Both the position numbers and the translations under genes were made by a program. Source: a virus. From it: a DNA stretch of 21,092 nt. The notes under the pieces are model-generated. The model had not been told where the DNA came from, made no database searches, and worked only from the letters and a program-made list of their open reading frames with translations. This document shows, piece after piece, positions 5,568 to 14,729 of the stretch (within the stretch, counting starts at the first letter, position 1; every line of letters begins with the position of its first letter). Location of the stretch: the IMG/VR virus record IMGVR_UViG_3300005529_000108, positions 1-21,092 of that record, one strand, 5' to 3'.

Positions 5568-5614
5568 GTAGCATATAGCTTACCTTAGACGCGCTAAGGT
5601 AAGCTATATGCTAC
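5568..5614. terminator. Perfect 21-bp inverted repeat between convergent operons
   Basis: Bases 5568-5588 and 5594-5614 are perfectly complementary over 21 bp around a 5-base loop (ACGCG). It lies exactly between the last plus-strand gene (stop 5564-5566) and the last minus-strand gene, whose TAG stop (5611-5613) is inside the right arm. Position and symmetry fit a bidirectional terminator. There is no T-tract on either side, so termination may instead involve Rho or RNase III processing. Confidence 0.75.
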
Positions 5615-6318
5615 CGTAACCGCGATAGATCGATCGACGCGATACGGCCGTCGCCGCGGTCGCCTATGAGGGTCTGGGCGCCGGGGTGTTGTTTTGCCAG
5701 CCAGGACGCGATCTGTTGCATGCCCTTCCGGCCGATCGTGTTGGCGTCCGTCGGAGCCGTCGCGTAGTTGGTCCGCACGGGGCCGACGTTGTTCATGCGC
5801 AGCGTCTTTCCTCCATCCTCGGCGGCGAGTACGAGCTCGTTGGGCGCACCGGTGGTGGGGTGGGTGAACTCGTATCGCGGCGCGAGCGTCGGGTGATCCG
5901 ATCCCGCCTCGTGAATCCCAAATGGAGCGAGATCTCGCTCGGCGTCGCCGAGGAGCCCCTCGGATTCAGGGACGCCGATCGCACCGAGCGCCGTGAGTGC
6001 AGCCATGCCCGGCCGGCCGGCATTTACGGCGTCGGAAGCCTGCTTCCCCGCCTGGAGGGCGCTCACGGGCGGCAGGAAGCCCAGCACCCGCCCCAGTTTG
6101 CTGCTGGGGTCCATAACCTGCTGCCAGAATGCGGGTAGACCCTGCGGCGCTGTGGGGACGCTCGCGCGCGGCAGAGCGTCGAATCGGCCTGGCGCCATTG
6201 TTGACGGCCCGATCGTCGGCTGCGGCAACCCTTGGGGAATAGGGGTCGCGGTAGCATCGGACTGCACGGGCGCCGAACCGCCGCCGGTGCCATTTACGTA
6301 ATCGGTGATCCAGCTCAC
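5611..6318 (-). CDS. Putative virion/ejection-cluster protein (235 aa)
   Basis: This is the last late gene. It starts at GTG 6318, immediately after an in-frame TGA, so no longer version exists. The N-terminus (MSWITDYVNGTGGG) loosely resembles the MGFFDEMNG motif of its neighbours. A Pro/Gln/Thr-rich low-complexity linker runs to about residue 60, a hydrophobic Ala/Gly stretch follows (about 70-115), and then a compact C-terminal domain. That domain has strands and a helix (NTIGRKGMQQIASWLAKQHP) ending in TLIGDRGDGR, loosely like a GNAT acetyltransferase core; I hold this weakly. Context puts it with ejection proteins. No homologue is recognised with certainty. Confidence 0.75.
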   Translation of the reverse strand: MSWITDYVNGTGGGSAPVQSDATATPIPQGLPQPTIGPSTMAPGRFDALPRASVPTAPQGLPAFWQQVMDPSSKLGRVLGFLPPVSALQAGKQASDAVNAGRPGMAALTALGAIGVPESEGLLGDAERDLAPFGIHEAGSDHPTLAPRYEFTHPTTGAPNELVLAAEDGGKTLRMNNVGPVRTNYATAPTDANTIGRKGMQQIASWLAKQHPGAQTLIGDRGDGRIASIDLSRLR

Positions 6319-6419: not shown

Positions 6420-6483
6420 CGTATTGCGCGTGCTAGCGTCGCTGCTCTTCTGGCACCGCTATCGCAACGGCGAACCACTGTAG
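6346..6483 (+). CDS. Possible opposite-strand membrane peptide (35-45 aa)
   Basis: A plus-strand ORF sits in a 140-base break of the minus-strand late operon and overlaps the 3' end of the 174-aa gene. Starts are ATG 6346 (45 aa, basic N-terminus MALRWTYRSP) or ATG 6376 (35 aa). Both give a strong single membrane helix (MLILEIAAGIVLAVIVLRVL) followed by HRYRNGEPL. No good ribosome site is seen; weak boxes TTGAGG (6352) and TATGCT (6375) with 17-base spacing are not convincing. It is reported because the hydrophobic pattern resembles the other tiny membrane proteins of this phage. Confidence 0.35.
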   Translation: MALRWTYRSPMLILEIAAGIVLAVIVLRVLASLLFWHRYRNGEPL

Positions 6484-6983
6484 GGGCCCGGCGTCAGATT
6501 GAGCGCCGCCAGTACTTTGCCGAGATCCCACTGCGCGACGTGGCCGTCTGGTCCGATGCGGTAGACGCTACTCTGGTTCGTGACGTAGCTCGGAATCTGT
6601 GCCGTCCGCGCCATATTGACGTCGTCCGATGACGGGTCGCCTGGCGCGTAGCCGCCGCGGGGAAATTCAGGCGACGCGCCTGGACTGATATAGCCGTGCC
6701 ACGGGTGGTTGTGGGCAATGGCCATGAGCATGTAGTTCGCGCGTTGCGCCGAATCCAGCGCGGGCATGGCCGCCTGCACGTGCGCGGCCTGACTGCCGAC
6801 GTCCGGCGACGGCATCACAACGTCAGAGTCGCCAGCCATGTCGTGAAATAGAAGCGACATGTGCTCGTGCTTGTCGGTGATACCCTGCGCCTGCTGCTGC
6901 GCCAGCCACTGCGCCCACTTCGGACTGTGCGTCAACAACGAATCCGGCGCCGGCGGATGCGTCAGTTCATCAAACAGCCCCAC
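6459..6983 (-). CDS. JAMM/DUF4329-like protein with virion-type N-terminal motif (174 aa)
   Basis: It starts at GTG 6983 directly after the upstream TAA. The first residues MGLFDELTHPPAP share the motif found on two neighbouring virion proteins. The C-terminal domain carries HNHP (H91, H93), a Gly/Pro-rich loop, then PSSDDVNMA (D121), followed by YVTNQSSVYRIGPDG. This is the H-x-H-P...S-x-x-D layout of JAMM/Mov34 metalloproteases and DUF4329. E40 (HEHMSLLF) could be the catalytic Glu. JAMM domains occur in phage tail-tip proteins such as lambda K, so an injected or tail-associated peptidase is plausible. Activity is inferred from the motif only. No signal peptide or membrane span is seen. Confidence 0.72.
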   Translation of the reverse strand: MGLFDELTHPPAPDSLLTHSPKWAQWLAQQQAQGITDKHEHMSLLFHDMAGDSDVVMPSPDVGSQAAHVQAAMPALDSAQRANYMLMAIAHNHPWHGYISPGASPEFPRGGYAPGDPSSDDVNMARTAQIPSYVTNQSSVYRIGPDGHVAQWDLGKVLAALNLTPGPYSGSPLR

Positions 6984-9032
6984 TTACTGCGGCTCATGTA
7001 GCAACCCGGGGAATTGGCCGCCCGCCGCAGCCGGCGCGCCGAGCGCCGCGCCAGGAAGACCGGGCTGAGGCATCTGCAATCGCGCAAGCAGTTGGTTGAT
7101 AGCGTCGGGGCCCTGCGTCATCAGCATGGGCGCGATCTTGCCAGCATCCGTGCGGACAGCATCTGCGGCGGACTGCCGCGCGGCCGAGTTGACTAGTCCT
7201 AAGGTCGACATCAACGGACTGCGCGCGAACCGCAACATTTTCGGCATGGCCGCCGCGACCGACGCGGCCCCGGCTTCGGTACGCGGCGCAGTCGGCGACC
7301 CACCGGTGGCCTTTTGAAGGCGCGCGAGCTGTGCCTCTGACTCGACCTGCTGCACGAATTTTTGAAACGTCGGCTGGTCACCGAATACGATTTGCAATTT
7401 GTCCTGAGTCGCCGGCGACGCCGACATGAGTTGCGCGGCCTGGTTTCGATTGGTCGACGTGCTACGAAGCTGATCAATCAACTGGGAAGCCATGCCGCGA
7501 CGAAACTCAGCCTGCTCAGCAGGAGAGAACGCCGCCATTTGCTTGGCCAGCGCGCGCGTATCGGATTTACCCCACGCCTCAACTCCGGCTTCGACGGCTT
7601 CCTCAAGGCCTTTGCGCTGCGCATACTCGGCTTGCACGGGCGCATAGTTCGGATCTTTACCCAAAGCATCCTTGACGGCGCTCTGGACCGTCTGATAAGC
7701 CTTTGCCAGGTTGCCATTGCCGGCTCGGTATGCCGTACTAATACGGCCGTCTAGCATCTGATCGAATGACTGCAAATCAGCGAACGTCGCGGGGCGCGTG
7801 CCGCCCTTCTCGATCATGCTTTGCAACGAGGGCACGGTTTTCATAGCGTCCCGGATCGTGCCCGCGTCAGCTTCGGGGTTCTGTTCGGAAAGGCTCTGAA
7901 ACAGGCGATCGGCCGGGCTATCGGAAACGATATCACCGGCGAGCCGCGCCTGCTGCCATGCCTGCTTGACGCCGGGCTTCTGGAGCGTCGCCGCAAGCGA
8001 CGTCCAGTCAATGTCCTTATTGGCCTCGCGCAGCTTGTCGTAGGCATCGTTGGCCCACGCGCGTCGCGACGCCGCGAGCTCGTCGAGGCGCTGATCGGCT
8101 ATAGGATTTCCGGTCACGTTCTGCACGTCATTGAGCAACCGATCGCCCGGTCCGGCTGCCCGCGAGCGGGTCACGGCATCGATCGCAGCATGGGCGTCGC
8201 TGTTCGCTGTCGCCACGCGATCGGCTTCGGCCGCGAGCGGCGGCGAGAGATCCGCCAACGTCGCCTGGTCTCCGCGGCCTGCCGCCTGCAATTTGGCGAG
8301 AGTCGTCTGCCAGGACGGGTCTTTAGCCGCAACGGTCGCGAGACGCTGCTCCGCGCTCGTGAGCGGCACGCGTCCCGCGATCTTGTCCGCGATAGCGCCG
8401 AGCACCGGCGAAAGCGTGCCGCCGAGCACCGCACCGCCGGCGCCCCCAGTCGCCGCACCACTAACTCTATTGTCAGGACCTGCCGCGCCCGCGCCATTCA
8501 CCGCGCCGAGCACGGCTCCCGTGCCCGCTCCGACAGCCGCACGGCCAGCCGCCGTGCTCGCGCCTATCTCTGGCGCCAATAGAAACGGCGCGACGCCGCC
8601 GGCGATGTCCGCCGCCGTGGCGCCCACCTTATGCGTCGCCTTAAATGACGAAAGCTGGTCGCGTAGGAACTGCGCCGTTTCATCCGGCGTACGTCCACCG
8701 GAAGGAACCCCAATCCGCGACAGAAACGCGCCTACCTCAGGTGCCCAATGCTGAAAGATTCCGTTCGCGCCATGCAACGCATAGCCAGACCAATCGGGGC
8801 CGACGAAACTCGGCTTGTCGCCGGTCGGAGCCGGATTACTTACCAACTGTAGGTCCTTGACTCCGAACTTGCCGCCGGTCTCTTCCCGTACGAACGCTTC
8901 TTCTGCAGACGGGTCTAATGTGATGCCCTTTTCCGCAGCGCGCGAACGCGCGAGCGCAAGTTGCGCCCCAACCGCTGCGGTCGGGTCGATGGGAGCAACT
9001 TGCGTAGGAGGGGGCGGAACTGGAGTTGGCAT
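6984..9032 (-). CDS. Internal virion / DNA ejection protein candidate (682 aa)
   Basis: This is the largest late protein of the ejection-type cluster. It starts at ATG 9032 in a TAATG overlap. The N-terminus is Pro-rich (MPTPVPPPPTQ). Residues about 20-130 form a folded region (EEAFVREETGGKFGVKD...). Residues about 135-220 are a long Gly/Ala-rich hydrophobic stretch with glycine-zipper character (AAVGAGTGAVLGAVNGAG), as expected for a protein that inserts into membranes. The remaining 450 residues are helical and coiled-coil prone. The C-terminus is Pro/Ala/Gly-rich. Size, composition and position match the large ejection proteins of podoviruses (comparable in role to T7 gp15/gp16 or P22 gp16/gp20), but sequence homology is not claimed. 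No transglycosylase motif is evident. Confidence 0.72.
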   Translation of the reverse strand: MPTPVPPPPTQVAPIDPTAAVGAQLALARSRAAEKGITLDPSAEEAFVREETGGKFGVKDLQLVSNPAPTGDKPSFVGPDWSGYALHGANGIFQHWAPEVGAFLSRIGVPSGGRTPDETAQFLRDQLSSFKATHKVGATAADIAGGVAPFLLAPEIGASTAAGRAAVGAGTGAVLGAVNGAGAAGPDNRVSGAATGGAGGAVLGGTLSPVLGAIADKIAGRVPLTSAEQRLATVAAKDPSWQTTLAKLQAAGRGDQATLADLSPPLAAEADRVATANSDAHAAIDAVTRSRAAGPGDRLLNDVQNVTGNPIADQRLDELAASRRAWANDAYDKLREANKDIDWTSLAATLQKPGVKQAWQQARLAGDIVSDSPADRLFQSLSEQNPEADAGTIRDAMKTVPSLQSMIEKGGTRPATFADLQSFDQMLDGRISTAYRAGNGNLAKAYQTVQSAVKDALGKDPNYAPVQAEYAQRKGLEEAVEAGVEAWGKSDTRALAKQMAAFSPAEQAEFRRGMASQLIDQLRSTSTNRNQAAQLMSASPATQDKLQIVFGDQPTFQKFVQQVESEAQLARLQKATGGSPTAPRTEAGAASVAAAMPKMLRFARSPLMSTLGLVNSAARQSAADAVRTDAGKIAPMLMTQGPDAINQLLARLQMPQPGLPGAALGAPAAAGGQFPGLLHEPQ

Positions 9033-10300
9033 TACTTCGTCTTCAGCAAATCACGAACCTGTTGCGATCCGCCGCTGCTCAATGCGGGCAGCATTTCCGT
9101 CGGATCATCGAACACCTGCGGATCGACCTGCCAACGTGCCGCCCGCTTCGCGTAATCAGCGCGGATGGGCGCCACGTCATTAAGGGTGTTCTGGTGCGCC
9201 GACCGCACGACGTTGATCAAACCCTTCACCTGATCATCCGTCAGCAGCGCGCCACCCTTCCCATTCTGCAACTTCTCAAAGAGCCGACTCACATTGCCGA
9301 CAGGTCCGACCGAACCCTGATAGCTCTGCAACTCGTTGCGCGGGACCTGCATGCCGGGATGCGCGAGGTTGAGTGCGTTGTACAGCAGCTCCTGCTCGGC
9401 CGTGATATCGTGCTTCGTCGCGCCCGGAATAGCGGCATACGCGCTCTGAATCTGACGGCTCTGATCGACGTACGGTTTAATCTCGCCATTATACTGCTGC
9501 ACGAGACGGTCTTCGCGGTTAGAGGCGGCGTTCGTTGTTGCTAGCGCTTGCTGCGCATCACGGTACGATTTGGCGTCGTCACTCATCTGCTTCGGCATAG
9601 GTTGCAACCACGGAATTGGCTGCCCCGTAAGTTTGTTGATCGGCACGAGTTGATTACCCGTGTCTTTGTATTCCACCTCCATCGGCTTGGATGCGTTGTC
9701 GAAACTGCCCTTGAGCGTCTCTCCGATCTTACCGGCCATCTCCATGTCGCCCGCAGCGACGTACGCCTGGTAAGCCTGCATCAGCTTCTGCGTCGTCTGC
9801 TGTGGAGTGTCACCCCGCTGTGGCATGAACATAGATCCAATCGCCGCACGGTTACGCAGGATGCTCTGCTGGTAGCCGACGTTCTGCGCTTCACCCATTT
9901 GCTGGATAGGCTGCTGAATCGCCTCGTTGAACCCCTGGCGCATGTTATTGACGCCGCCGGCGAGCGCTTGCCCGAAGGTGCCCATTGCAGGTTGGCCCAA
10001 GACGCCGAGACCAAAGTCGAGCAGTCCGCGAGAACGCGCGTGCTGCAAGTCCGCCTGCGAGATAAGACCGGAATCAACGAGCGCCTGCGGATTCGGATTG
10101 ATATTGCCGCTGATGTTCTGGCCCGCGCGCTTCAGGCGATCCCAAAACGACATGCGGACCGGAGACGAGACTACGGGAGCCGCACTGGGCGTAAGTTGCG
10201 AGGCGGGCGCCTGCATTCCGGGGGTGCTTGAGATTTGCGCAAACGTCGGGGCACCGGGAACGATCGGAGGGGGCCCGTTCATTTCATCGAAAAAACCCAT
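9032..10300 (-). CDS. Internal virion / ejection protein candidate with MGFFDEM motif (422 aa)
   Basis: It starts at ATG 10300 in a TAATG overlap. The N-terminal 35 residues (MGFFDEMNGPPPIVPG...TFAQIS) match the N-terminus of the preceding 134-aa protein in motif and in the downstream FAQIS. A second similar motif, MSFWDRLKRAG, is at residues 50-60. Then comes a Gly-rich helical region (LLDFGLGVLGQPAMGTFGQA) and a long Gln/Ala-rich, mostly helical body. Composition and genomic neighbours suggest a protein carried in the virion and released with the DNA. No enzyme motif is seen. Confidence 0.72.
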   Translation of the reverse strand: MGFFDEMNGPPPIVPGAPTFAQISSTPGMQAPASQLTPSAAPVVSSPVRMSFWDRLKRAGQNISGNINPNPQALVDSGLISQADLQHARSRGLLDFGLGVLGQPAMGTFGQALAGGVNNMRQGFNEAIQQPIQQMGEAQNVGYQQSILRNRAAIGSMFMPQRGDTPQQTTQKLMQAYQAYVAAGDMEMAGKIGETLKGSFDNASKPMEVEYKDTGNQLVPINKLTGQPIPWLQPMPKQMSDDAKSYRDAQQALATTNAASNREDRLVQQYNGEIKPYVDQSRQIQSAYAAIPGATKHDITAEQELLYNALNLAHPGMQVPRNELQSYQGSVGPVGNVSRLFEKLQNGKGGALLTDDQVKGLINVVRSAHQNTLNDVAPIRADYAKRAARWQVDPQVFDDPTEMLPALSSGGSQQVRDLLKTK

Positions 10301-10704
10301 TAGTACATCCTCTGTCCGCTAGCCAGCGGATTCGCGGAGAACAGTTGCGACATCTGCGCCCTGTGCTGTTGCATCGCGTTCATGTTCGGCATTCCGAGAT
10401 TCTGCATTGGATGCGGTTGCGGCATGTTCGGCGGCAATGCAGGCTGCCCCATTTGCGCAAGCCCATGCATGAGGTTCGTGAGGTGCATGCCCATTTGCGG
10501 ACCAAACGCAGAACTGAACATGCTCTGCATCATCGGTGTATGCCCGGTCATCTGTGGCTGCACACTCGGATGCTGCTGAAGTAGCGGAGCAGCCGTGCTC
10601 TGAACTTGCGGTAACCCATTGGATATCTGCGCAAACTGCTGCGGGGTAGAGATACTTATAGGCGGCGCGCCGTTCTGGCCGCCCAATTCGTCGAAGAGTC
10701 CCAT
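10300..10704 (-). CDS. Met/Gln/Pro-rich virion-type protein with MGLFDEL motif (134 aa)
   Basis: It starts at ATG 10704 (TAATG overlap) and ends in a TAATG overlap with the next gene. The N-terminus MGLFDELGGQNGAPPISI and the following QQFAQIS align with the neighbour at 9032-10300. The rest is low complexity, rich in Met, Gln, Pro and His (QPQMTGHTPMMQSMF), and probably disordered. No catalytic motif is visible. It may be a small companion of the ejection proteins, related to the neighbour's N-terminal region by duplication. Confidence 0.68.
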   Translation of the reverse strand: MGLFDELGGQNGAPPISISTPQQFAQISNGLPQVQSTAAPLLQQHPSVQPQMTGHTPMMQSMFSSAFGPQMGMHLTNLMHGLAQMGQPALPPNMPQPHPMQNLGMPNMNAMQQHRAQMSQLFSANPLASGQRMY

Positions 10705-11384
10705 TACATCATTGCCACAAGACCCGCCCCAGTGGTGACATCACCGAGCGCCGTTGACCACGGGCTGGGATTCTGCTGCTGCGTCTGCGTGCCTTGGAAC
10801 GGCGTCGCCATGACCGAGCCGCGCATGACGTTGTACGGATTCATGAACTGCTGTTGCGCAACACCCGTCTCATACTGGCCGATGTTGTTCAACTGGCTGC
10901 CAGCGCCGAAGCCGAGGTTCGCGAGCTGTCCGGCCTGCTGCATAGCCTGCTGATAGCCGCCTGACAACAGATTCGCGATGGTGTTGTTCTCGCCCGTCTG
11001 CGCCGTGCCCAGTGCGGCACCCTGCGCGACCGCCGCGCGGTCGCCACCGAACGCGCCCTGCGCGGTCGCGTTCGAGTTGACTTGGTTGGCCACCTGCGCA
11101 TTGTTGTTAGCGAACTGCTGATTTTGCGCGTTGATCACCTCTGACTGATACGGGTTCATCAACTTCTGGAGATCCTGCGCGTTCCCGCTCAGTGCACCCA
11201 TGCCGGTTTGCGCGCCAGGCAGCATTCCCTGGAAGAAGCCCTGCGCCTGATACGTCGGCTGACTGACGCCGGGGAGTTGTCCCGCGGCCGTCTGGTCCGC
11301 CGTGTTCCACATCTGCTGCAACTGCTGTTGTTCAGCAGGAGAGAGTTGTGTCGTATTTGTCTGACTGCCGCCCTTTGAGCCCAC
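10704..11384 (-). CDS. Gln/Asn/Ala-rich virion protein, probable ejection-cluster member (226 aa)
   Basis: It starts at GTG 11384 overlapping the upstream TAG by one base. The sequence begins MGSKGGSQTNTTQLSPAEQQ and is rich in Gln, Asn, Gly and Ala, with Phe/Tyr spaced through helical segments. I recall this MGSKGG/Q-rich type from the structural regions of proteobacterial podoviruses, where it lies beside ejection proteins. The C-terminus is hydrophobic (TTGAGLVAMM). No enzymatic motif. The role is assigned from composition and neighbours. Confidence 0.65.
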   Translation of the reverse strand: MGSKGGSQTNTTQLSPAEQQQLQQMWNTADQTAAGQLPGVSQPTYQAQGFFQGMLPGAQTGMGALSGNAQDLQKLMNPYQSEVINAQNQQFANNNAQVANQVNSNATAQGAFGGDRAAVAQGAALGTAQTGENNTIANLLSGGYQQAMQQAGQLANLGFGAGSQLNNIGQYETGVAQQQFMNPYNVMRGSVMATPFQGTQTQQQNPSPWSTALGDVTTGAGLVAMM

Positions 11385-11743
11385 TAGAGTCGTTTCTCGA
11401 GCACCACCAGTCTTTTATCTTCCCACCCCGCGCGAGAAGTAAGAAACGAACGCTCCCATCCGCGTCGACCTGTCATGTAGATCAGGGCACAGCCGCGGGT
11501 GCGTCCGAAGGCGCACACAAGCGGCTCCATCGCTTCAAGTTCCGCGAGGTTGCCACCCGCTAGGAACACGTTCACTGCTTTCTCGCGTGGTGATTCGAGA
11601 ACCTCGGTAATCATCACGCTCTGCGGGCCGTTCCACATCTGAAACCGGCCGCTTGCTACCCCTTCAGCGATGTCGTCGAATGCGTGAGAGCCGCCCGCGT
11701 ATTCGAGTGCCGCCTCAATCTGCTTCCGATATTGCTCTATCAC
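11384..11743 (-). CDS. Conserved phage protein, GNAT-like (119 aa)
   Basis: It starts at GTG 11743 in a GTGA overlap. The sequence follows a pattern familiar from podovirus structural regions: DIAEGVASGRFQMWNGPQSV, then VFLAGGNLAELEAM, and at the end GCALIYMTGRRGWERSFL. The alternation of strands and helices and the GRxGWxR ending resemble a reduced GNAT acetyltransferase fold, but the acetyl-CoA loop is not clear. It could modify or help fold neighbouring tail or ejection proteins; function is unproven. Confidence 0.72.
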   Translation of the reverse strand: MIEQYRKQIEAALEYAGGSHAFDDIAEGVASGRFQMWNGPQSVMITEVLESPREKAVNVFLAGGNLAELEAMEPLVCAFGRTRGCALIYMTGRRGWERSFLTSRAGWEDKRLVVLEKRL

Positions 11744-12219
11744 GCGCCCAGCAAGCCATGTGTCTTCAAGTCGGCAATAAGCTGCGCGAGCATTTCCGAC
11801 GTCTGCACCAATGTCGCTGACGCGCCGGGGAAGTTCGCGATACGCGAGCCGCCGGTAGGGGTCCCATAGCCGCCTATCTGGGGCCCAACAACCTGATTCG
11901 AGCCAACTTGGAAATAGTTAGTCAGGAGCAATCCGCCATTGGATTGGAACTGGCCGATAAAATTTCCATTGAAATTCACTCTCAACGCGTTGAGCGAATC
12001 CGGGTTGTTAAACTGCCAATCGCGAACGCCCGCCGTCGCGCCATAGAAGTTCAAACTTGAACCACCGGCCGCGCGTTGTGCGTTTACGTTCACCGTCTGT
12101 GCGAGCGCGCCCTGTTGCCACTGCGTTTCGATTTGTTGTATTTCCTGTTCAACTTGTTTCCGGAAAGACGCCTCGTTCTGAAAAGAATACTGCGACGGCG
12201 CGGTGGTTAGTCTGATCAT
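11740..12219 (-). CDS. Fibre-like structural protein (159 aa)
   Basis: The ATG at 12219 overlaps the upstream stop (ATGA) and is preferred over a TTG at 12267 that would overlap the hub gene by 52 bases. The N-terminal third is a Gln/Glu-rich coiled coil (FRKQVEQEIQQIETQWQQ). The middle is strand-rich with repeated Asn/Gly/Gln (LNALRVNFNGNFIGQFQSNG), typical of a trimeric fibre or a tail-needle tip. The C-terminus is a short helix. No homologue is recognised with certainty. Location after the gp10-like hub supports a tail role. Confidence 0.65.
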   Translation of the reverse strand: MIRLTTAPSQYSFQNEASFRKQVEQEIQQIETQWQQGALAQTVNVNAQRAAGGSSLNFYGATAGVRDWQFNNPDSLNALRVNFNGNFIGQFQSNGGLLLTNYFQVGSNQVVGPQIGGYGTPTGGSRIANFPGASATLVQTSEMLAQLIADLKTHGLLGA

Positions 12220-14000
12220 CGTCGACCGCCTTGCTTCACGCCGAGCCGCATCGTACCAACTCGCCAACCACCTCCGTTAACCTGACTAAAGCGGAATCGC
12301 ATCTGTCGACCGGACACACGCACGTTCGTCGGAGCCGTCAGTGTGTACGGACCATATGCGACATCAGGATCAGTCGGCATATACTTTGAGAACACGGTGA
12401 GATTCACGGCCCCTAGCGTCAACTCATCAGGGACGAGCCGTTGCAGCTTGACAATGTTATCTCCATTGCCGAGTTCCACCGGGCCCGATTCGATATACGG
12501 CATTTCGCCAGCGTAGTCATTTCCGGATTCATGTGCAATCAGTACGCTTGCGCTCGCGCCCTGTGCATTGCACATCATCGGATTGTCGAATACATCCGGC
12601 GAGGCACCACATGAACGATCAAGACTCGTCCCGAACGACCAGTGATTTTCCTTATAGTTGTAAATGACGTAGCAGTTGTTTTCCGTCGGCGACTCAAAGC
12701 CGATTTGACCCGTTGTCGTGCTAGGGAAAAACCACCACACTTCGCTGAACTGCGGCATAACCATGCTCCACACTTTCGCGCGCTGAGCAACGTTCAAGCC
12801 GCCGAACACGAAATCTGCCACATCGCATGGGATCGTTTGCACCATGCCGTTATACATGTAGAACTCGTTGCGTCCCATCCAGATTGCCATCGAACCGACC
12901 ATCGCGACAGCATTCGGAGAGATAATACCGCATTTGTCACCTACTTTGGTGAACGAATAGACGAGCTGACCGCCGATGTAGCGCATGGCGTGGAGGTCAT
13001 CATCCGTCCACAAGAGCGTTTCATTAACACCGGCGCGACCGCACATCAATCGGCCGTTCGTCGCGAGCTCGAAACTACCGGCCGTATTGTTGGCCGTCGC
13101 GCTCCACGCGTTAATGGTCTCTTGTGATGCCCACGCGACTTGACGGCTATCGCTGTTCGCGCCAAGGACGACAAGAAACCGTTCTGGAGTGCAGACCACG
13201 GCGCGACCGGTCGGCGCCTGTGTGCCGGTACCCGTTACGGCGGTCCCATTCGCGATCGTACTCGGGACGGGAGGCTGCACCGTTACTGTCAACACGTTAC
13301 TAACGGCCGTCGCCACAAGCTGCGCCGTGTACGTCACACCTGAAATAACGAACGTCTGCCCTGACAAAATGGAACCGGTCAGCGTCGTCGCCGTGAGTGC
13401 GATCGTCGTCGCGCCGCCGGCCGTACTGCCAGATGTAACGAGCGAGCCCGTGAACGTTGGCGACCACGCTGGCGGGACGGCGGCTACGCCCGTATTACCC
13501 TGCCAGACATACAGCTTGCCATCGCTCGTGCAAATCCCGCAGAGGAAGCCACCGAAGTTATCGAGCGTCCACGTATCCGCCTCGAGGAACGTGGAGCTAG
13601 CCGCCCCAACACCATATGCACCCGCGCCATACGCGAGATTGCCGTACGAACCACCAGAACCGCTGTAGACGGAATCAATACGGCCGCTTGTAAATCCAGC
13701 TGGCGTGATATCAAAGTACGAACCGCCGGCCAATAGTTTGAGCTTGGTCGTCGTGCCAATGACGAGCAGCGGCGAGCCATCAGTATATCGCCACGTTAGC
13801 ATACAACGGGGCATGCCTGGAAGCACACCAAGAGGGTTGTTGTTGACATCCACCTGCGTAACCCACCCGCCGATCGGGCGCACGCTTCCCTCGAAGAAGC
13901 GGATGAGCGTCCCATCATACCAGCGTCCTTTTGCTTGGTACGTTGTGCCGTTGCGATAGAGACCAGGCGGTAGTTTGAGCGGTAACAGTGTTTCCTGCAT
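12216..14000 (-). CDS. P22 gp10-like tail hub / DNA stabilization protein (594 aa)
   Basis: This protein probably closes the portal-adaptor channel and carries the fibres. The N-terminus has the pattern GLYRNGTTYQAKGRWYDG, then IRFFEGSVRPIGGW, typical of P22 gp10-like packaged-DNA stabilization proteins, followed by beta-rich repeats with conserved Trp/Asp and a C-terminal beta domain (NVRVSGRQMRFRFSQV). Residues about 183-262 form a Thr/Ser/Gly/Val-rich segment (TTIALTATTLTGSILSG) that looks like an extra inserted beta domain. The ATG at 14000 is one base after the endolysin stop. The family call is from pattern memory. Confidence 0.8.
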   Translation of the reverse strand: MQETLLPLKLPPGLYRNGTTYQAKGRWYDGTLIRFFEGSVRPIGGWVTQVDVNNNPLGVLPGMPRCMLTWRYTDGSPLLVIGTTTKLKLLAGGSYFDITPAGFTSGRIDSVYSGSGGSYGNLAYGAGAYGVGAASSTFLEADTWTLDNFGGFLCGICTSDGKLYVWQGNTGVAAVPPAWSPTFTGSLVTSGSTAGGATTIALTATTLTGSILSGQTFVISGVTYTAQLVATAVSNVLTVTVQPPVPSTIANGTAVTGTGTQAPTGRAVVCTPERFLVVLGANSDSRQVAWASQETINAWSATANNTAGSFELATNGRLMCGRAGVNETLLWTDDDLHAMRYIGGQLVYSFTKVGDKCGIISPNAVAMVGSMAIWMGRNEFYMYNGMVQTIPCDVADFVFGGLNVAQRAKVWSMVMPQFSEVWWFFPSTTTGQIGFESPTENNCYVIYNYKENHWSFGTSLDRSCGASPDVFDNPMMCNAQGASASVLIAHESGNDYAGEMPYIESGPVELGNGDNIVKLQRLVPDELTLGAVNLTVFSKYMPTDPDVAYGPYTLTAPTNVRVSGRQMRFRFSQVNGGGWRVGTMRLGVKQGGRR

Positions 14001-14001
14001 G

Positions 14002-14421
14002 CTACCACTCCCCCGCCGCTATCATCGCGCGGCGGACTGCATACCATTTCGTCGACTGGATATGATCATCGTCGGCTGGGGCGACGGGCGGAAAATCATG
14101 TCCACTGTGCAGCTGCGGCGCTTTGCGTACCGCAGCCCACAGCCGCGCCCACGCCGGGTGAGCCGTATCCCACGACAGTTGACCGGCCGCAGTGCGCCGC
14201 GCGCAATCGATCGCCAGTCCCACGCCATGCGCGCTGTGCCCCGGCTTCGCCGCCAGCGGGCCGCCAGCGAGATAGCGATCGTGCAGAACCTTTTGCTCCG
14301 CATCGGAACGCCGTCCGAATGTAACGACCCACATATCCGGCAATGGGCCGAGTGTTGCGTCAACATCCGACGCAAACTCCGGGTCGAGCGCGTCGCGGTA
14401 GTGCCCCCACACGACGGCCAT
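14002..14421 (-). CDS. Endolysin, M15-type L-Ala-D-Glu / D-Ala-D-Ala peptidase (139 aa)
   Basis: It would cut peptidoglycan stem peptides at lysis. The zinc motif SAHGVGLAID gives H65 and D72, and DDDHIQ gives the third ligand H120; this is the S-x-H-x-x-G-x-A-x-D ... H layout of peptidase M15/VanY-type endolysins. The upstream strand TFGRRSDAEQKVLHDRYL fits the family fold. No signal peptide or cell-wall-binding domain is present, so export would need a holin. The ATG 14421 shares one base with the previous stop (TGATG); a TTG at 14424 is a less likely start. Two membrane proteins lie just upstream, completing a lysis cassette. Confidence 0.85.
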   Translation of the reverse strand: MAVVWGHYRDALDPEFASDVDATLGPLPDMWVVTFGRRSDAEQKVLHDRYLAGGPLAAKPGHSAHGVGLAIDCARRTAAGQLSWDTAHPAWARLWAAVRKAPQLHSGHDFPPVAPADDDHIQSTKWYAVRRAMIAAGEW

Positions 14422-14729
14422 CAACAGCCTTCAGTATCGGCCTGCCGTTCCTCCGCGGTGCGGGTGTCCACATAGTCCGGCTGGTCGGACGGGAAGATCG
14501 GCGCCATAGCGGGCGGAAATCCCTTCGTGCGATTCGCAATGGCCACGCAGCCATTGATGACGAACGCGCCGGCCAGCGCGGCGTACGCCAGGATCACATT
14601 CGCGCTCGGCTTCAACTTCAGCAACGCGATGCAAACGACACACGCAATCGCGCTTGCATCGACAAACAGCCCGAACGCGATGATACGCGACATGCTCAGT
14701 TTTCCACCGGGATCGCGAAAAGCCGTCAC
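14421..14729 (-). CDS. Holin candidate with two membrane spans (102 aa)
   Basis: The GTG at 14729 overlaps the upstream stop (GTGA); ATG 14756 is an alternative that would overlap the upstream gene by 31 bases. Two hydrophobic segments at about residues 16-37 and 45-65 are separated by a short basic turn (KLKPSAN). A charged tail of about 35 residues follows (DTRTAEERQADTEGC). Two spans, a charged tail and a position directly before an endolysin fit a class II-type holin. The sequence family is not recognised. Confidence 0.68.
   Translation of the reverse strand: MTAFRDPGGKLSMSRIIAFGLFVDASAIACVVCIALLKLKPSANVILAYAALAGAFVINGCVAIANRTKGFPPAMAPIFPSDQPDYVDTRTAEERQADTEGC

Follow-up and report, generated by a model that had tools for sequence, protein, structure and literature searches.

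The window analysed here spans a whole virus record (21,092 bases), which is probably a fragment; it encodes an SU10-like major capsid protein (PF17236, E 8.6e-85 in Pfam). Its 594-aa stabilisation protein, which we take to be P22 gp10-like, groups with phage stabilisation proteins, and the genes of the neighbouring cluster run in the order F1, F0, two proteins with MGLFDEL or MGFFDEM starts, F5, P0001 and an orphan (Table 1). P0001, the gene under study, lies inside this cluster directly after F5. The PHROG matches and the gene order from F1 to F5 support the first-pass annotation, which had read the locus as an ejection-type cluster. Tail tubular proteins are found in relatives including Sinorhizobium phage phiM5, which also carries internal virion proteins, and Octadecabacter virus DB2, and no tape measure or sheath is annotated in the regions read of such relatives. 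On these grounds the phage is likely short-tailed, as had been proposed earlier and as the capsid and stabilisation proteins also support; a depositors' Myoviridae label on three of five relatives' records was not credited.

Table 1. Genes of the ejection cluster and nearby features in the window
Positions	Strand	Feature	Basis
5611..6318	-	235-aa orphan, second slot gene	no credible family in Pfam, PHROGs, NCBIfam, PADLOC
6459..6983	-	P0001: MGLFDEL N-terminus and divergent JAB-superfamily domain, by sequence nearest DUF4329/Tox-JAB-2	Pfam, broad profile, alignment
6984..9032	-	682-aa ejection-type protein (family F5), conserved, directly upstream of the cargo slot	phrog_5880
9032..10300	-	422-aa ejection-cluster protein, related N-terminus MGFFDEM	
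10300..10704	-	134-aa ejection-cluster protein, related N-terminus MGLFDEL	
10704..11384	-	226-aa protein (F0), conserved in relatives	weak PHROG 'DNA ejection protein' match, E 1.5e-4
11384..11743	-	conserved 119-aa protein (family F1), opens the ejection cluster; "acetyltransferase" in two relatives' annotation	
12216..14000	-	stabilisation/structural protein, anchor for finding relatives	phrog_3287; relatives: phage stabilization protein
14002..14424	-	probable endolysin	weak VanY/M15-type match, Pfam E 0.002; PHROG endolysin E 0.0015

P0001 is an ORF of 174 aa with a GTG start. It looks like a real gene, since the TAA stop of the upstream F5 gene abuts its start codon with no gap and its GC content by codon position (0.67/0.48/0.78) resembles that of the adjacent genes. 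The protein begins with MGLFDEL, an N-terminal motif of the type common to the 422-aa and 134-aa proteins of the cluster, as the first reading of the sequence had noticed. In these two proteins the MG[LF]FDE[LM] start is accompanied by a FAQIS segment near residue 20-25, which suggests an N-terminal module of ~30 residues. The JAB-like domain of P0001 aligned over residues 25-153, where E40, H91-x-H93 and S118-x-x-D121 can be read with 24 residues between H93 and S118; the numbering previously given for E40, H91, H93 and D121 was correct, and S118 is likewise placed. The adjacent orphan, looked at as a possible immunity gene, matches no recognised family; its N-terminal half is of low complexity, its C-terminal ~100 aa are without family match, and its candidacy as a GNAT protein was dismissed, the profile giving it no score.

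The sole Pfam match of P0001 was DUF4329 (PF14220), at 13.9 bits against a gathering score of 28.6 bits (E 0.052 over 24,736 models), and none of the other Pfam JAB models matched at E up to 10. Because DUF4329 had been named ahead of any search, the probability of a chance match to this family alone is ~2e-6. A broad profile of 17 diverse DUF4329 members scored P0001 at 24.6 bits (E 8.1e-6), rank 1 of 9,084 sequences (P0001 itself, 2,000 shuffles and 7,083 ORFs), the runner-up reaching 9.3 bits. A narrow profile of 29 members, 27 of them from one order, did not recognise the protein (5.1 bits, rank 13). As the 17 members were picked for diversity after the narrow profile had failed, the choice was checked with other member sets and with random subsets. 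P0001 scored 19.0 bits with all 37 members (6.4 for the best of 500 shuffles) and 17.5 bits with 10 members from outside the main order (best shuffle 5.8), and it gave no signal with the 27 members of one order only (1.1 bits, best shuffle 6.5); with random mixed subsets it stood above all 500 shuffles in 20 of 20 cases (7.7-26.9 bits).

The family members were gathered from genomes, being present in 70 of 244, 2 of 300, 3 of 194 and 7 of 296, and in 1 of 12 and 0 of 8 of the genomes with prophage-like loci. Nine of 46 DUF4329 loci were removed by the picking pattern, four of which had the motif after all, three lacked strict SxxD spacing and two were unreadable. E40, H91, H93, S118 and D121 sit on columns that are invariant in all 37 aligned members, where H, H, S and D belonged to the pattern by which members were picked and E did not. 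The conservation of H91, H93 and D121, proposed in the first-pass annotation as a check, was found at the level of the DUF4329 family. The H-x-H...S-x-x-D layout described there stands in that its columns match those of the family, but the bare motif is weak evidence and not significant, a relaxed pattern returning 37 rows when run on the 4,380 ORFs from 43 loci; the profile comparison is the stronger argument.

It is extremely improbable, in our judgement, that the DUF4329 similarity arose by chance and that P0001 is an unrelated orphan fold. The low Pfam score, the negative narrow profile and the lack of a usable AlphaFold2 model (single sequence, mean pLDDT 37.9) speak for it, but the family was named a priori, and neither the first rank in the broad profile nor the 20 subsets agree with it. 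A sequence search of the PDB with P0001 returned four matches, all at chance level. The Pfam match, the first rank with the broad profile and the invariant columns bear out the JAB/DUF4329-like domain that had been proposed, and at the sequence level P0001 is a divergent JAB-superfamily domain whose closest described family is DUF4329/Tox-JAB-2. Formal membership in DUF4329 is not claimed, since the protein misses the Pfam cut-off, has HNH in place of the H[ST]H of Zhang et al. 2012 and carries a longer loop. Relative to the JAMM motif E-Xn-H[ST]H-X7-SxxD, P0001 differs in its HNH and in its 24-residue H93-S118 stretch, and the H-to-S spacing in 36 DUF4329 members is 6-18, mostly 12. Passages of PMC300881 accept N between the histidines as a variant found in distant relatives of JAMM proteins. 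The similarity could also be real and the domain dead, binding-only or present in the cluster as structural filler, as the divergent sequence, the long loop, the single copy and the lack of homologues might indicate; the retention of all five active-site positions despite strong overall divergence makes this very unlikely.

Close homologues of P0001 were found neither in viral contigs, nor in phages and plasmids by tblastn, nor in genome contigs. Relatives of the phage were gathered from viral contigs and genomes by anchoring on the F1 and stabilisation proteins, and their loci (151, then 223, with 17,045 ORFs) contained no P0001 homologue. The slot of these 223 loci likewise yielded no JAB domain, and in the absence of homologues the recurrence of a JAB domain in the slot is unsupported. 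Six weak matches (E 0.001-0.01, in sets of 385 and 300 genomes) were inspected individually and dismissed as chance. Searches of annotated phages for DUF4329 by tblastn with three members as queries gave nothing or chance-level matches, and two DNA patterns found zero DUF4329-like genes in viral contigs.

The position after the F5-like gene appeared variable in its occupants. The 62 F5-like matches in relatives, in which three contigs are counted twice, were followed directly by a non-portal gene in 40 cases and by the portal in five; eight were cut by the contig end and nine had no called next gene, L002 being counted among these nine though its annotation shows genes there. When 20 slot proteins were compared with Pfam, a GNAT domain was found above cut-off in L091 and L135 and DUF7178 in L088 and L109. 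The slot protein of L202 gave a sub-threshold ART-PolyVal match (E 6.4e-4) together with an HlyD_2 match above cut-off, which is taken for a coiled coil, and the other 15 matched no Pfam family above cut-off, so that a recognised enzyme domain is absent from most. AlphaFold2 on a four-sequence ART-like slot family returned a pLDDT of 35.7. Related small proteins with a HExxH stretch (HECLH) follow the F5-like gene in L233 (8475-8912) and L235 (10547-10927); they are possible zinc peptidases by sequence, that of L233 being without Pfam match.

The slot genes of relatives also share their ends unequally. The GNAT protein of L135 and the protein of L254 are 73% identical over ~115 N-terminal residues and have different C-termini, and the protein of L109 has its N-terminus in common with L092 (49%) and its C-terminus in common with L088 (71.5%). 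Sequence comparison thus portrays the relatives' slot genes as having interchangeable N- and C-terminal modules, the swaps involving L109:16221-18836, L092:11001-12431, L088:10506-13205, L135:7100-8245 and L254:10678-11565. A G-L-L-D-type start (MGLLDE/MAGLLD) is present in 10 of 42 relatives' slot proteins, and the MGLFDEL of P0001 resembles it; the likeness of P0001 to these proteins is confined to this short N-terminal motif of 4-7 residues. As a regular expression the motif occurred in 16 of 537 genes downstream of the anchor against 4 of 941 upstream, an enrichment whose p-value of 8e-5 is optimistic because the sequences are related. Cargo-like starts (MAGLLD or MGLFDA) also occur outside the slot, in L140:1058-2065 and L149:4004-8029.

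We favour, with moderate confidence, the reading that P0001 is a cargo of the ejection cluster with a JAB-type zinc hydrolase domain, injected and acting in the new host. In layout it would have a brief N-terminal stretch (MGLFDEL...) ahead of the divergent JAB-superfamily domain, which is compact. The protein would be made late, together with the virion proteins, packaged alongside the ejection proteins and delivered with the DNA into the host, where it might act as a zinc hydrolase. H91, H93 and D121 are predicted to bind zinc, E40 to serve in acid-base catalysis and S118 as a helper residue. Its likely purpose would be to knock out a molecule or defence of the host at an early stage of infection. 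A role against some host target once injected, as suggested before, fits the cluster position, but the action itself is one that we infer.

An injected JAB effector is plausible in the light of two sources. Passages of Zhang et al. 2012 (PMC3482391) suggest that toxin JABs, including Tox-JAB-2/DUF4329, might be nucleases rather than peptidases, describe the ubiquitin-tail tunnel as not conserved in them, and report Tox-JAB-2 versions in phage and giant virus, naming Xanthomonas phage OP1. Passages of Iyer et al. 2017 (PMC5512222) deal with injected polyvalent proteins that have ART, GNAT and RadC-type JAB domains. The term metalloprotease, used in the first-pass annotation, is unsupported, given the nuclease suggestion of Zhang et al. 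and the mean pLDDT of the model; cleavage of nucleic acid or nucleotides seems somewhat more likely for P0001 than isopeptidase activity.

An injected JAB isopeptidase stripping ubiquitin-like tags of antiphage systems (type II CBASS, Bil-like), in the manner of a counter-defence, is decidedly unlikely. UBL-like conjugation reportedly operates in CBASS defence (PMC10097602). The best-studied JAMM/JAB proteins, as portrayed in passages of PMC300881, are isopeptidases for Ub/UBL whose sites comprise E, HxH and SxxD, and by the same account the HNH of P0001 would be tolerable. On the other side, P0001 has no PADLOC match, and the prediction of Zhang et al. (PMC3482391) for Tox-JAB-2 favours nucleic acids over ubiquitin-like tails.

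Location within the ejection cluster could agree with a virion protease of assembly or ejection, one that processes ejection proteins or aids envelope passage, including by trimming peptidoglycan. The N-termini of DUF4329 members from one sampled order suggest export, as judged by eye, and passages of PMC300881 count lambda tail protein K among the JAMM proteins. We consider this role unlikely, since an equivalent is absent from the 223 loci of relatives, which argues that P0001 is not a core assembly factor, and a separate VanY/M15-like enzyme, itself a weak match, is encoded in the window. We know of no peptidoglycan-directed DUF4329 protein, and the trimming of peptidoglycan that had been put forward for P0001 is without support.

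The injected-hydrolase reading might be extended to the slot as a whole. Short, swappable N-terminal packaging modules could there deliver swappable effectors (GNAT, ART-like, DUF7178, JAB), with the JAB domain cleaving a host defence molecule; such a system would be polymorphic-toxin-like and injected, built on neither MuF nor giant polyvalent proteins. This extension is tentative and, taken in full, somewhat unlikely. The JAB domain class and injected effectors are already known. For a stand-alone Tox-JAB-2-like cargo in a modular, podovirus-type ejection slot we found no precedent, nor did we recognise a description of DUF4329 in ejected cargo, in the open-access literature, surveyed mostly at the level of listings. 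To our knowledge, the targets of predicted JAB-type toxins are not known, and a small free-standing JAB protein in an ejection cluster would suit purification and testing. Reading whichever gene follows the F5-like ejection gene would be a simple route to early host-takeover factors in uncultured phages, and the slot may define a minimal N-terminal signal that loads proteins into podovirus heads.

Compared with DUF4329/Tox-JAB-2, P0001 shares the order E...HxH...SxxD, the alignment over most of its length and a 'P-x-G' segment after D, whereas it scores below threshold, has HNH and carries a longer H-to-S loop. Unlike polymorphic-toxin Tox-JAB-2 domains, it is a free-standing phage protein with neither an Rhs or secretion N-terminus nor a recognised immunity gene. 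Lambda tail protein K, named in passages of PMC300881, likewise places a JAB-superfamily domain in a virion-morphogenesis region, although K belongs to the tail assembly of a long-tailed phage and P0001 matches only DUF4329 among the Pfam JAB models. MuF toxins, as described in PMC12226406, resemble it in being phage proteins that join a delivery N-terminus to an exchangeable C-terminal activity, but the N-terminal segment of P0001 is short and unrelated, no MuF domain was matched in Pfam or PHROGs, and the cluster is of podovirus type. Polyvalent proteins combine two or more disparate domains (2-15 in the passages of PMC5512222), whereas P0001 is a single small recognisable domain, and their RadC belongs to a different JAB clade. 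What the slot has in common with them, by the same passages, is the principle of predicted host-modifying enzymes injected with the DNA, GNAT and possibly ART being among its occupants.
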